A program made the position numbers and the translations under genes. 64,000 nucleotides of DNA from Sphingomonadales bacterium Ga0077559 (GTDB lineage: Bacteria > Pseudomonadota > Alphaproteobacteria > Sphingomonadales > Sphingomonadaceae). A model generated the notes under the pieces. That model ran no database searches. It was not told where the DNA came from and worked only from the letters and a program-made list of their open reading frames with translations. The stretch lies in assembly GCA_001464315.1 (NCBI GenBank), contig LNFK01000078.1, positions 1-64,000 on the forward strand, given 5' to 3'. Below, one piece after another: positions 292 through 11,814 of this stretch; position 1 is the first letter of the stretch; each line of letters starts with the position of its first letter.

Positions 292-307
292 TGTTTCACG
301 TGAAACA
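292..307. promoter_or_regulatory. parS: parS centromere site for ParB binding
   Basis: The sequence TGTTTCACGTGAAACA is a perfect 16-bp palindrome identical to the consensus parS bound by chromosomal ParB (Spo0J) proteins. It lies in the 85-bp gap between mnmG and mnmE, about 6.3 kb from the proposed replication origin. Chromosomal parS sites are known to cluster near the origin and near parAB, so both sequence and location agree. Confidence 0.93.
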
Positions 308-5424: not shown

Positions 5425-6456
5425 TTATCCCTTGCGGACCAGAGTAAGCAGCTTTTCTACATGTTCAATGGGCGTATCGGGCAAGATGCCGTGGCCGAGA
5501 TTGAAAATATGCGGCCGGTCGGCAAACGCACCGAGTATCCGCTGCACGGCGGAATCTAGCGCTGCGCCACCGGCGATTAACGCCAGCGGATCAAGGTTGC
5601 CCTGAACCGGCATTCCCGCTGGCAAATATTCGTTAGCCCAGACCGGATCGACAGTTTCATCGACACCGACGGCATCCACACCCGTTTCACGGGCATAAGC
5701 TGGTAGCTTGCCGCCGGCACCTTTCGGAAAGCCGATGATCGGCGTGTCGGGATGACGGGTTTTCAACCCAGCGACAATTTTCGCATTGGGGGCAATCACC
5801 CATTGTTCGAATTGAGCAGGTGACAATGAACCTGACCAGCTGTCGAACAATTGTACCGCGTCGACCCCGGCCTCAATTTGACCGGAGAGATAATCGACAG
5901 TTGCGATTATAATCCGGTCGATGAGTTCACTGAAACGCTCAGGCTGTCCATAAGCCATCCGCCTTGCTTCTGCCTGGTCCTTACTGCCTTGGCCTGCAAC
6001 CATGTAGGTAGCGACCGTCCACGGGCTCCCAGCGAAGCCCAGAAAGGTTGTTTCGGGTGACAGCGCAGATGCCACCTTGCGAACAGTTTCAAACACCGGA
6101 TTCAAACGCTCCGGCGCCGGTACCAGTTTCTCGAAATCATGATCAACCAGTGGTGGTGCCAGTCGGGGACCTTCGCCCGTTTCGAACCACAGATCTTGCC
6201 CCATCGCGTGCGGGATAACCAGAATGTCGGAGAACAGGATCGCACCGTCAAAACCAAAGCGCCGGATCGGCTGGATTGTGATCTCGGCGGCACAATCGCT
6301 GTCATAAGCCAGTTCGAGAAACCCGCCTTTTTCTGCCCGCAAAGCACGATATTCGGGCAAATACCGCCCGGCCTGACGCATGAGCCAGACAGGCGGAACT
6401 TTTTCCCGATTGCCCCTCAGGACGTTAAGCAGTTTCTTGGGCGTAGGCACTGACAT
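5425..6456 (-). CDS. hemE: Uroporphyrinogen III decarboxylase
   Basis: HemE removes four carboxyl groups from uroporphyrinogen III to give coproporphyrinogen III in the cytoplasm. This 343-residue protein has full family length. It carries the substrate-binding signature PPVWLMRQAGRYLPEYRALR at 21-40, an active-site Asp in ILFSDIL, and the second signature GFAGSPWTVATYM. The ATG at 6454-6456 opens onto the proposed origin. The hemE-oriC pairing is known from Caulobacter crescentus. It is followed by hemJ. Confidence 0.97.
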   Translation of the reverse strand: MSVPTPKKLLNVLRGNREKVPPVWLMRQAGRYLPEYRALRAEKGGFLELAYDSDCAAEITIQPIRRFGFDGAILFSDILVIPHAMGQDLWFETGEGPRLAPPLVDHDFEKLVPAPERLNPVFETVRKVASALSPETTFLGFAGSPWTVATYMVAGQGSKDQAEARRMAYGQPERFSELIDRIIIATVDYLSGQIEAGVDAVQLFDSWSGSLSPAQFEQWVIAPNAKIVAGLKTRHPDTPIIGFPKGAGGKLPAYARETGVDAVGVDETVDPVWANEYLPAGMPVQGNLDPLALIAGGAALDSAVQRILGAFADRPHIFNLGHGILPDTPIEHVEKLLTLVRKG

Positions 6457-6470
6457 CGAGGTGTGGATCC

Positions 6471-6495
6471 AATCAAAATATATATATTTATATAA
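6471..6495. other. AT-rich candidate DNA unwinding element
   Basis: This is a run of almost pure A/T (alternating TATATATTTATATAA) immediately upstream of the hemE start. It contrasts sharply with the GC-rich surroundings. It is the likely site of strand opening in the proposed origin, though it could also serve as a hemE promoter element. Confidence 0.6.
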
Positions 6496-6514
6496 GGATG
6501 ATGAAAGATGATGG

Positions 6515-6563
6515 GCTGTTGGTAACCCGTGCCTTAAAAGCTTTTACGGATATTGCCAACAGC
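6515..6563. repeat. Inverted repeat with central palindrome inside the proposed origin
   Basis: GCTGTTGG at 6515-6522 is mirrored by CCAACAGC at 6556-6563; the pairing extends to 10 of 11 bases. Between the arms lies the 12-bp palindrome TAAAAGCTTTTA at 6535-6546. The arms could form a cruciform or bind a dimeric initiation regulator. No regulator can be named from the sequence. Confidence 0.6.
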
Positions 6564-6614
6564 TTGACGGCATGAGTCGGGCACAGCGGTTACGAGTCGC
6601 AAATTCCATCCCCG

Positions 6615-6635
6615 TTATCCACAGGCTGTGGATGC
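6615..6635. other. Paired DnaA boxes (one perfect, one degenerate, inverted)
   Basis: TTATCCACA at 6615-6623 is a perfect DnaA box on the forward strand. Three bases on, TGTGGATGC at 6627-6635 is an inverted near-match (GCATCCACA when read in reverse). Together they form a compact back-to-back pair. Confidence 0.8.
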
Positions 6636-6646
6636 AGCAATGCCCC

Positions 6647-6655
6647 TGTGTATAG
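6647..6655 (-). other. Degenerate DnaA box
   Basis: Read in reverse this is CTATACACA, one mismatch from the relaxed consensus TTATNCACA. It lies 11 bp from the paired boxes. Confidence 0.5.
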
Positions 6656-6726
6656 CCTGTGCCCGAATCGAGAGCTTATTGGCCGCTAACGGGGACGGAC
6701 TATGCCTGCAAAACTTGTCCCTTGAT

Positions 6727-6735
6727 TTATCCCCA
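6727..6735 (+). other. Degenerate DnaA box near ppsR
   Basis: TTATCCCCA differs from the TTATCCACA consensus at one position. It lies 24 bp before the ppsR start codon, at the right edge of the proposed origin. Confidence 0.5.
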
Positions 6736-6758
6736 GCCTGCCAACAAGACTATGAGTC

Positions 6759-7592
6759 ATGAGCCAGCGCTTCCACCTTCATCTATTGTCCGACTCGACT
6801 GGCGAGACTCTGGAAAATATCGCCAAGGCGGCACTGGTGCAGTTTGACGGCGCCGAAAATGTCGTCAAACATTTCTGGCCGATGGTGCGGTCCGAAAATC
6901 ATCTGGAGCGTATCCTCGTCGACGTTGCCGCCAATCCAGGACTGGTGCTGTTCACTCTGGTAAACCGCGATACCAGGCGCAAGCTGGAAAACCGTTGCCG
7001 TGCTTTGGGCTTGCCTGCAGTTGCTGCGCTTGATGCAGTGAGCGATGCAATGTCTAATATGTTGGGGCAGGAAGCCAAAGCCCGGCCGGGCCGTCAGCAC
7101 GCGATGGACGCAGCTTATTTTGCCCGGGTCGAAGCCATCCAGTTTACTATTGCGCATGACGACGGCATCAATTCGCAGAATTGGGAAGAAGCGGACATAT
7201 TATTGGCGGGGGTATCACGCACCTCAAAAACACCGACAAGTATTTATCTAGCCAATCGCGGCTATAAGACCGCAAATATCCCGATCGTCCCCGAAGCGCC
7301 CCCGCCGCCGATACTGTTCACGGTCAAACATCCGATGGTTGTCGGATTGGTTACCAGCGCCGAACGGCTGATTCAGGTGCGTCGCAACCGCTTACTGTCG
7401 CTCAATCAAGCGCCCGATACCGATTATGTTGACGAGGAAAAGGTCAAGGCCGAAGTCGCGCATGCCCGCCGGATGTTTGCTGATAATGGCTGGCCGGTTC
7501 TCGATGTCACGCGGCGCTCAATCGAGGAGAGTGCTGCGGCGATTATCAATCTTTTTAATGAACGTGAATTGCAACAGGCCGCACCGGTTTGA
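6759..7592 (+). CDS. ppsR: PEP synthase regulatory protein / kinase-pyrophosphorylase (DUF299)
   Basis: This 277-residue cytoplasmic protein belongs to the bifunctional kinase/pyrophosphorylase family that switches PEP synthase or pyruvate phosphate dikinase on and off. Phosphorylation uses ADP and reactivation uses phosphate. It has the N-terminal signature LLSDSTGETLENIAKA (9-24) and the P-loop-like GVSRTSKTPTS (151-161). The ATG follows the proposed origin directly. Its stop codon overlaps the TTG start of the maf gene, so it heads a tightly packed run ppsR-maf-aroE-coaE. The same first gene flanks the origin in Caulobacter. Confidence 0.95.
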   Translation: MSQRFHLHLLSDSTGETLENIAKAALVQFDGAENVVKHFWPMVRSENHLERILVDVAANPGLVLFTLVNRDTRRKLENRCRALGLPAVAALDAVSDAMSNMLGQEAKARPGRQHAMDAAYFARVEAIQFTIAHDDGINSQNWEEADILLAGVSRTSKTPTSIYLANRGYKTANIPIVPEAPPPPILFTVKHPMVVGLVTSAERLIQVRRNRLLSLNQAPDTDYVDEEKVKAEVAHARRMFADNGWPVLDVTRRSIEESAAAIINLFNERELQQAAPV

Positions 7593-11005: not shown

Positions 11006-11473
11006 ATGATTCGACTTTCTACAAGGCTCGTCGAGGGCGCTGTCGCCGCGAATATGGTTTGCACGGGCAAATCTGATCTGCTGGCGCGTCTTTCGGTGAT
11101 TGCCGCGGATAATTATTTACTAGATGCAAGCGCTGTTCTGGATGGTCTTGTCGAACGAGAGCGTTTGGGCCCGACGGGTTTTGGCGGTGGAACCGCAATT
11201 CCGCATTGCAAGGTCGCCGGAATCGATATGCCGGTAGCTGTATTTGCAAAGCTGGCCAAGCCGGTGGATTATGACGCGGTCGACGATGAGCCTGTGGATC
11301 TGGTTTGCGCCTTGGTGTCGCCGGCACAGGATGGCGCGTCGCATTTGCGGGCGCTGGCAGAGGTGTCGCGGTTGTTCCGTGACGAGAAGTTTCGTTCACA
11401 ATTGCGCGGCGCTGCCGACTCGGACGCGATGTTTGCTTTGCTGACGTTGTCCGAAGAGCGTGACGCGGCTTGA
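11006..11473 (+). CDS. ptsN: PTS IIA-like nitrogen regulatory protein PtsN
   Basis: This 155-residue IIA-Ntr phosphoacceptor protein has its active-site histidine in TAIPHCK (His67). It receives phosphate from the EINtr-NPr relay and tunes potassium, nitrogen and stress responses. The start is uncertain: the ATG at 11006 gives a typical N terminus, while a TTG at 10967 would add 13 residues; neither has a clear ribosome site. Its stop overlaps the TTG start of the next gene. Pairing with hpf is a conserved alphaproteobacterial arrangement. Confidence 0.9.
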   Translation: MIRLSTRLVEGAVAANMVCTGKSDLLARLSVIAADNYLLDASAVLDGLVERERLGPTGFGGGTAIPHCKVAGIDMPVAVFAKLAKPVDYDAVDDEPVDLVCALVSPAQDGASHLRALAEVSRLFRDEKFRSQLRGAADSDAMFALLTLSEERDAA

Positions 11474-11814
11474 TTGAACCACGGCTCACCGCCGAGTTCC
11501 AGATTTCTGCGATACAGCGGCTAGCCGAGGCTGGAGGCGGCTTTGCAACGGTGCTGCGCAAGGGCGACCGGACAGCTGGCGCAATCTTGCTGATTGGCCA
11601 GATTCGGGGCCGGAATCCTATGCTTTTTGACCGATATCCTTCGCTCGATGGAATATCCAAATGGCAGCCGGTGTCGCTGCAAAATGATGAAAATGAAGCA
11701 AAGGTTACGGCTTACTGGCAAAAGCGCGCCGCTCGCGACCCCGATTTGTGGATAATGGAACTGGACGTCGCATCACCAGAACGGTTGGCCGGACTTTTGG
11801 CGTCATCCCCTTGA
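11470..11814 (+). CDS. DUF1491 family protein
   Basis: This 114-residue soluble protein of unknown function begins MIEPRLTAEFQISAIQRLAEAGGGFATVLRKGD and has a compact mixed alpha/beta pattern. These features fit the DUF1491 family found in alphaproteobacteria. The start is TTG, overlapping the ptsN stop codon, so it is probably translationally coupled to ptsN. No catalytic motif is visible. Confidence 0.82.
   Translation: MIEPRLTAEFQISAIQRLAEAGGGFATVLRKGDRTAGAILLIGQIRGRNPMLFDRYPSLDGISKWQPVSLQNDENEAKVTAYWQKRAARDPDLWIMELDVASPERLAGLLASSP

Follow-up and report, generated by a model that had tools for sequence, protein, structure and literature searches.

The hemE/ppsR intergenic region as the probable chromosomal origin of a Sphingorhabdus-like alphaproteobacterium, and its GANTC sites

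Introduction

In Escherichia coli, the origin of replication, oriC, works together with Dam (GATC) methylation sites and the SeqA protein. In Caulobacter crescentus, the origin, known as Cori, is located between hemE and a gene of COG1806 (PMC1914354). The order of hemE, origin and DUF299 gene, which the original prediction for the present DNA had named as established for this species, agrees with that report. The same paper describes some accepted hemE/ppsR origins that have no CtrA sites; such sites are, therefore, not class-defining. Similarly, the oriC of Sphingopyxis granuli TFA has been placed near hemE, as is predicted in DoriC for most Sphingomonadaceae, and conserved DnaA boxes as well as a putative DUE were described for it (PMC4741004).

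The locus and the sample

The window, i.e., the whole stretch of 64 kb analysed here, is the first part of contig C78 (102,309 bp) in a draft genome of 78 contigs and 2.86 Mb (2,863 kb). The organism is called Sphingorhabdus-like since the best named relatives of its ppsR, among the matches listed, are records labelled Sphingorhabdus, with 94% identity. From its sequence, the region of 302 bp between hemE and ppsR is very probably (roughly 95%) the chromosomal oriC of this organism, in the Caulobacter-type location. The locus is made up as follows.

6457..6758, no strand: predicted oriC, 302 bp between the divergent hemE and ppsR, with the skew minimum, a box cluster and a single match in its own genome
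5425..6456, minus strand: hemE, uroporphyrinogen decarboxylase, left flank (TIGR01464, 404.5 bits, cut-off 302.95; PF01208)
6759..7592, plus strand: ppsR (DUF299 / Kinase-PPPase / COG1806), right flank (NF003742, 322.6 bits, cut-off 225; PF03618)

Both genes pass their family cut-offs in the profile search, and they face outwards from the region, just as had been predicted. At the Rfam gathering threshold, two tRNAs were found in the window, and the origin region gave no match. A DNA match to the region is present in 39 of the 45 genomes of the genus set, its own genome counted. One genus genome, G039, holds two hemE-ppsR-type regions, on its contigs C20 and C34, and is perhaps a mixed assembly.

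The survey covered 170 loci, which comprise 30 of the genus, 80 named records, 20 of the order, 20 of the class and 20 further ones of the family or genus. The named loci are the best 80 among the matches listed; for the order and the class, 20 loci apiece were hand-picked from the matches listed. In the order set, 19 loci come from other families and one, L219 of genome G089, comes from the same family; it is included in the counts. ppsR had a match in 78 of the 79 genomes of the order and in 51 of the 76 of the class. In 169 of the 170 loci, hemE and ppsR point away from each other and lie no more than 1500 bp apart; since the loci were picked by their ppsR match, this figure measures gene pairing. 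The exception, L224, in which the two genes are 1.6 kb apart, was dropped from the region counts. As the named records repeat genus genomes, the 130 family regions reduce to 102 distinct ones and, along with 20 order and 19 class regions, make up 141 distinct regions. For the column counts, seven of the 102 distinct origins (longer than 335 bp) were left out; the remaining 95 distinct sequences are still related and form 34 clusters at 70% identity.

GC skew and parS sites

A GC-skew plot had been proposed as a check on the original prediction. It could be drawn as far as the draft allows, and it puts the minimum at the locus, leaving the prediction standing. On C78 (102 kb), the cumulative minimum lies at 6418, which is 39 bp off the region. 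When C75 (254 kb) is joined to C78, the minimum of the resulting 357 kb is still C78:6418; this plot spans 357 of the 2,863 kb, with a join taken from gene order. Read from its translations, C75 appears to end with parB, parA, rsmG and a truncated mnmG, while mnmE opens C78 (1-1624 of the window), which suggests that C75 precedes C78. The two contigs probably adjoin, and their ends have no exact overlap of 10-300 bases. On the C75 side, the skew is noisy and, with a mean of -0.0042, weak.

The related genomes point to the same place. In the closed congener G004, the minimum of a contiguous 426-kb stretch is at 2,692,267, just inside hemE and 557 bp to the left of where ppsR matches. Of the sampled 20-kb blocks of this genome, L051, L062 and L066 on the left and L072, L074 and L075 on the right have the wrong sign, besides some that are near zero. 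In the closed congeners G009 and G005, the skew changes sign between the two 20-kb blocks adjoining at the locus. The sampled 20-kb blocks of G009 are negative before the locus and positive after it, except L085 and L088, with a second change of sign at 2.0-2.2 Mb, across the 3.02-Mb chromosome from the locus. The sampled blocks of G005 follow the same pattern, except L103 and L119. The shift in GC skew that characterises an alphaproteobacterial oriC at hemE/ppsR is, in short, found at this locus.

Another mark of the origin neighbourhood is the ParB site.

292..307, no strand: perfect parS TGTTTCACGTGAAACA, one of two places in the genome at up to one mismatch, about 6 kb from the origin

The second such place in the genome is near the end of C75. 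Perfect parS sites also occur near hemE/ppsR in G004 (three), G009 (two) and G005 (one), and G005 has one further near-perfect place; all of these are within 5.5-8.9 kb of the gene pair. The reversed parS pattern, used as a control, had zero matches in the four genomes. This placement of the origin serves a draft genome, and related ones, in which dnaA sits on another contig and gives no guidance.

DnaA boxes and the candidate unwinding element

The elements recognised inside the region are the following.

6462..6470, minus strand: degenerate DnaA box GGATCCACA, from the box search
6470..6495, no strand: AT-rich block, candidate duplex-unwinding element, holding the 25-mers richest in A+T of the whole 64 kb
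6497..6513, plus strand: triplet block GATGATGAAAGATGATG, at the position where other alphaproteobacteria have TAG/TTG/TGG (DnaA-trio-like) triplets
6514..6516, no strand: G+C spacer GGC between the triplet block and the next box
6517..6525, minus strand: degenerate DnaA box TTACCAACA adjoining the triplet block, 2 mismatches
6553..6568, plus strand: conserved element TTGCCAACAGCTTGAC, whose core 29 of the 30 genus origins and 64 of the 102 distinct family origins share
6615-6623, plus strand: perfect DnaA box TTATCCACA, a match to the consensus
6627-6635, minus strand: inverted partner DnaA box GCATCCACA, 2 mismatches
6647..6655, minus strand: degenerate DnaA box CTATACACA, from the box search
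6715..6735, plus strand: conserved block TTGTCCCTTGATTTATCCCCA of 29 of 30 genus origins, with the ppsR-proximal DnaA box TTATCCCCA (6727-6735, plus strand)

A perfect box with an inverted partner, further degenerate boxes and an AT-rich block had been named in the original prediction. All were found again, at 6615-6623 with 6627-6635, at 6462, 6517, 6647 and 6727, and at 6470-6495, where the most AT-rich 25-mers of the window lie. At up to two mismatches, there are six boxes in the 302 bp, a number that none of 500 shuffles reached (mean 1.14). At up to one mismatch, there are two (shuffle mean 0.13), which 4 of 500 shuffles reached. A box cluster above chance, as expected of an alphaproteobacterial hemE/ppsR oriC, is thus present. 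The whole 64-kb window has 10 boxes at up to one mismatch against 7.81 in shuffles, 28 of 100 of which reach 10. Since this number is ordinary, it is the clustering at 6457-6758 that is unusual. The mean number of boxes at this threshold is 2.47 per family region (range 0-5; shuffles 0.07), 3.60 per order-set region (1-7; shuffles 0.12) and 2.37 per class-set region (0-6; shuffles 0.09). Taken together, the box cluster, the GC skew, parS and the conserved gene pair support the predicted identity as oriC.

Perfect boxes were also seen outside the region. One, on the minus strand at 11747-11755, is inside the ORF 11470-11814, 5 kb to the right of the origin. Two others, 445 bp apart on C75, were set aside, both being inside one ORF of 380 aa and not intergenic.

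The ppsR-proximal block is nearly confined to the genus: the TTGTCCCTTGATTTATCCCCA pattern occurs in 29 of 30 genus origins, and of the 71 other distinct origins of the family (L144 on) just one has it. Its conserved sequence (6715-6735) exceeds what a lone DnaA box needs. The core of the element at 6553-6568, TGCCAACA...TTGAC, is present in 64 of 102 distinct family origins vs 0 of 39 order and class origins. This element, TTGCCAACAGCTTGAC, is non-standard as a DnaA box and might serve as the -35 element of a promoter or as a site for a protein.

Only four 25-mers of the window have at least 23 A+T, and they start at 6470, 6471 (24), 6472 and 6475. The AT-rich segment of a hemE/ppsR oriC is, therefore, found here as the AT maximum of the window, with unwinding itself as a candidate role. 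Next to it is the GATGATGAAAGATGATG block, whose exact sequence is present in 25 of the 30 genus origins and 26 of the 102 distinct ones of the family, and in none of the 39 of order and class. The box adjoining the triplet block reads TGTTGATA (plus strand) in 24 of 30 genus origins and is likewise degenerate. In many class regions, read by eye, TAG/TTG/TGG-like triplets come after an AT-rich block and before a CCTGTG(G/A)A box. A strict pattern of this arrangement matches 8 of the 20 regions of the order, 7 of the 19 of the class, 15 of the 102 of the family and 1 of the 30 of the genus. By their position, the triplet block and the AT-rich block are taken as the putative unwinding site. The layout can also be compared with the basal unwinding system (BUS), which calls for three or more triplets with a central A no further than 16 bp from a DnaA box, and in which the G+C gap averages 4 bp (PMC8287927). 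The layout would fit, but the triplets read 3'-TAG-5' and not 3'-GAT-5', with a slip, and the adjacent box has 2 mismatches.

Folding of the centre

The original prediction had also suggested that the architecture may be specific to sphingomonads. To some extent this holds, in that some of the conserved elements occur only in the genus or family sets. The ‘structured centre’, which was part of the same suggestion, is not among these. DNA folding of the region gives a z of -1.71, with 5 of 100 shuffles equally stable, and, of the inverted repeats compared, those made by DnaA boxes stand out in the family and the rest hardly do. In the 95 aligned family sequences, the inverted pair 6615-6623/6627-6635 (I9) is 80% paired vs at most 41% in the slid controls. 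Against the best slid control, the values are 70% vs 43% for I7, 57% vs 50% for I5, 43% vs 43% for I3 and 50% vs 48% for I1 (8-bp core only). In the 30 genus sequences, they are 87% vs 50% (I9), 84% vs 48% (I7), 79% vs 73% (I5), 79% vs 53% (I1) and 48% vs 40% (I3). The cells changed on both sides number 3 for I9, 34 for I7, 28 for I5, 86 for I3 and 40 for I1 in the family, and 0, 3, 0, 8 and 4, respectively, in the genus. The double changes of I3, I1 and I5 in the family are read as chance, because their pairing is barely above the slid controls. I9 and I7 are both made of DnaA boxes. A structured centre as a separate feature was rejected, as nothing supports it beyond the inverted DnaA boxes; at the genus level, I1 may still form a hairpin.

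GANTC sites and the question of a methylation gate

Besides the boxes, sites for CcrM methylation are found in and beside the region.

6574..6578, no strand: GANTC, in 1 of 95 at its column, i.e., in this sequence alone
6594..6598, no strand: GANTC whose middle base varies, present in 84 of the 95 distinct origins aligned
6665..6669, no strand: GANTC, in 51 of 95
6754..6758, no strand: GANTC, weakly conserved, in 8 of 95 at its column
6792..6810, no strand: two more GANTC (6792 and 6806) in the start of ppsR, part of the dense stretch from 6574

At the 6594 site, the G, A, T and C columns are kept in 92, 86, 85 and 83 of the 95 sequences, while the middle base is T in 55, G in 31 and C in 9. 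Such a pattern would be expected if selection acted on the GANTC site and not on one fixed sequence. Among the 34 clusters, 26 have the 6594 site and 13 have the 6665 site.

The 102 distinct family origins hold 407 GANTC vs 132.7 in shuffles (sd 10.6, 20 shuffle sets), or 12.6 per kb vs 1.1 to 6.3 per kb for seven control palindromes of the same composition. The excess is smaller in the order and class sets (40 vs 26.4 and 69 vs 44.8 in shuffles), and in the 64-kb window the motif is depleted (123 vs 273.5 in shuffles). The flanks of the named loci have 2.63 GANTC per kb. In the 357 kb of its own genome, the highest density per 250 bp is reached from 6574 on, with six sites, two of them inside ppsR. 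The 30 genus regions hold 83 GANTC vs 33.4 in shuffles, and the control AGNCT is denser there (10.6 vs 9.17 per kb), presumably due to its location in a conserved block. Thus, GANTC density alone proves little within the genus. In another family of the order, one origin region (L213, genome G048) has 13 GANTC in 442 bp.

As for the proteins, the genome encodes a CcrM-like methylase (NF050803, 605.6 bits over positions 2-349 of 350, which is below the cut-off of 830), in which PF01555 and RAMA score above cut-off. A GcrA homologue is also encoded in this genome, and a SeqA homologue was not found in it. The DNA of Sphingomonas sp. AAP5 is reported to be methylated at GANTC (PMC8067484). Of the marks of a Dam/SeqA-type origin, site enrichment and a cognate methylase are thus found, and the SeqA reader is not.

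There is about an even chance that the GANTC sites are unrelated to initiation, being either tolerated in intergenic DNA or parts of methylation-dependent promoters of hemE and ppsR that are read by GcrA. The motif is reported to be over-represented in intergenic regions (PMC8067484), which would suit this explanation, as does the presence of GcrA with no SeqA found. Furthermore, genus origins are not special in density, as the origin of G004 ties with other stretches for the top density in the sampled DNA, and those of G009 (4 per 250 bp vs 6 in the densest other stretch) and G005 (2 vs 5) are exceeded. It is also reported that a ccrM deletion in Caulobacter leaves a DNA-content profile like that of the wild type (PMC3973325), and that CcrM depletion in Agrobacterium delays ori2 but not the DnaA-dependent ori1 (PMC11514494). 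However, between the genes of three congeners the density is 1.67-2.10 GANTC per kb, vs the 12.6 per kb of family origins, and only 6 of the 211 gaps of 200-450 bp there hold at least four sites. The preservation of G-A-T-C around a variable base at 6594 likewise argues against this explanation, and so do the extra chromosome copies that Caulobacter is reported to gain when CcrM is over-expressed (cited in PMC3973325).

Alternatively, the origins of Sphingomonadaceae might be gated by CcrM, such that hemimethylated new origins would stay silent until CcrM acts. The GANTC between and around the DnaA boxes would then be kept as methylation sites and not as fixed sequences. Such a gate would be the GANTC counterpart of Dam/SeqA and would replace the CtrA block of Caulobacter, with DnaA, GcrA or a new protein as the candidate reader. 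We regard this proposal, with all its parts, as doubtful. The published data on ccrM deletion and depletion in Caulobacter and Agrobacterium speak against it, and the poor conservation of two of the four GANTC sites of the region, together with the ori1 result, makes it slightly less probable. The idea itself is not new, as a Caulobacter model has the methylation of Cori gating initiation (PMC8865702). As far as the texts retrieved go, the open-licence full-text literature yielded no paper on GANTC at sphingomonad origins. The conserved GANTC sites are, in any case, a directly testable candidate for once-per-cycle control.

Other explanations of the region

It is very unlikely that this oriC is under Caulobacter-style control, in which CtrA blocks the origin in non-replicating cells. 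The gene neighbourhood is the same as that of Cori, but neither TTAA-N7-TTAA nor the loose TTWW-N7-TTWW was found in 6457-6758 (0 strict and 0 loose sites by a pattern search, which a diverged site would escape). The strict site is present in just 6 of 102 distinct family origins, and TTAACCAT is absent from all the sets counted. Moreover, the growth and viability of Sphingomonas melonis are reported not to be harmed by the loss of CtrA (PMC8116508). The question is thus raised of how alphaproteobacterial origins without CtrA consensus sites restrict initiation to once per cycle. The IHF patterns used, whose consensus is loose, also gave no match in 6457-6758.

That 6457-6758 is only a promoter region shared by hemE and ppsR, with its boxes as sites of DnaA-regulated promoters and the origin elsewhere, e.g., at dnaA, has next to no probability: the two genes diverge from the region and presumably both have their promoters there, and the 705-bp gap upstream of dnaA has a one-mismatch box TTATCAACA along with GANTC sites, but the GC-skew minima of its own and related DNA fall at hemE/ppsR, parS lies beside this gene pair, and the dnaA gap has three boxes (up to two mismatches) in 705 bp vs six in 302 bp and a lower AT peak (21 vs 24 of 25). 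An origin at dnaA was rejected on skew, boxes and AT. The gap upstream of dnaA (L240 3201-3905), with its five GANTC and one-mismatch box, would fit a methylation-dependent expression of dnaA.

A model for initiation

The features themselves, their conservation, the GC-skew minimum and parS are directly established, and with 6457-6758 as oriC they suggest how initiation might proceed. DnaA would bind the central perfect box and its inverted partner, in addition to the weaker boxes around them. From there, a DnaA filament may extend via the 6517 box onto the triplet block at 6497-6513 and open the AT-rich block at 6470-6495, the putative unwinding site. The helicase would be loaded at the opened block, and the forks would exit both ways, co-directionally with hemE and ppsR. 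The parS about 6 kb away would direct segregation. Any role of GANTC would come on top of this scheme, as a separate and weaker inference than the origin model.

Comparison with known systems

The likeness to E. coli oriC consists in the enrichment of methylation sites at the origin and in the cognate methylase family being encoded. The systems differ in that E. coli uses Dam/GATC and SeqA, whereas CcrM/GANTC is present here with no SeqA homologue found, and the gating here is hypothetical. With BUS (PMC8287927), the region shares the order of box, G+C spacer, triplet block and AT-rich block; in contrast to the BUS consensus of 3'-GAT-5', the triplets of the genus are GAT/ATG, with a slip of one base, and the adjacent box of the genus is degenerate.

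The Cori of Caulobacter crescentus is similar in having the same flanking genes, an AT-rich segment, few DnaA boxes and a box of the TCCCCA type. GANTC motifs, which are reported in the Caulobacter origin and in close relatives (PMC3973325), are present here too. Unlike Cori, which has CtrA and IHF sites, 6457-6758 gave no match to the CtrA and IHF patterns used; its strong box is TTATCCACA vs the G-box TGATCCACA of Cori, and its length is 302 bp vs 404 bp. The oriC predicted for Sphingopyxis granuli TFA and for further Sphingomonadaceae resembles it in the position near hemE, the conserved gene organisation, the DnaA boxes and the putative DUE (PMC4741004). The location of the origin is, thus, already known, experimentally in Caulobacter and by prediction in most Sphingomonadaceae, and the present region is a new member of this group with some parts specific to the genus or the family.
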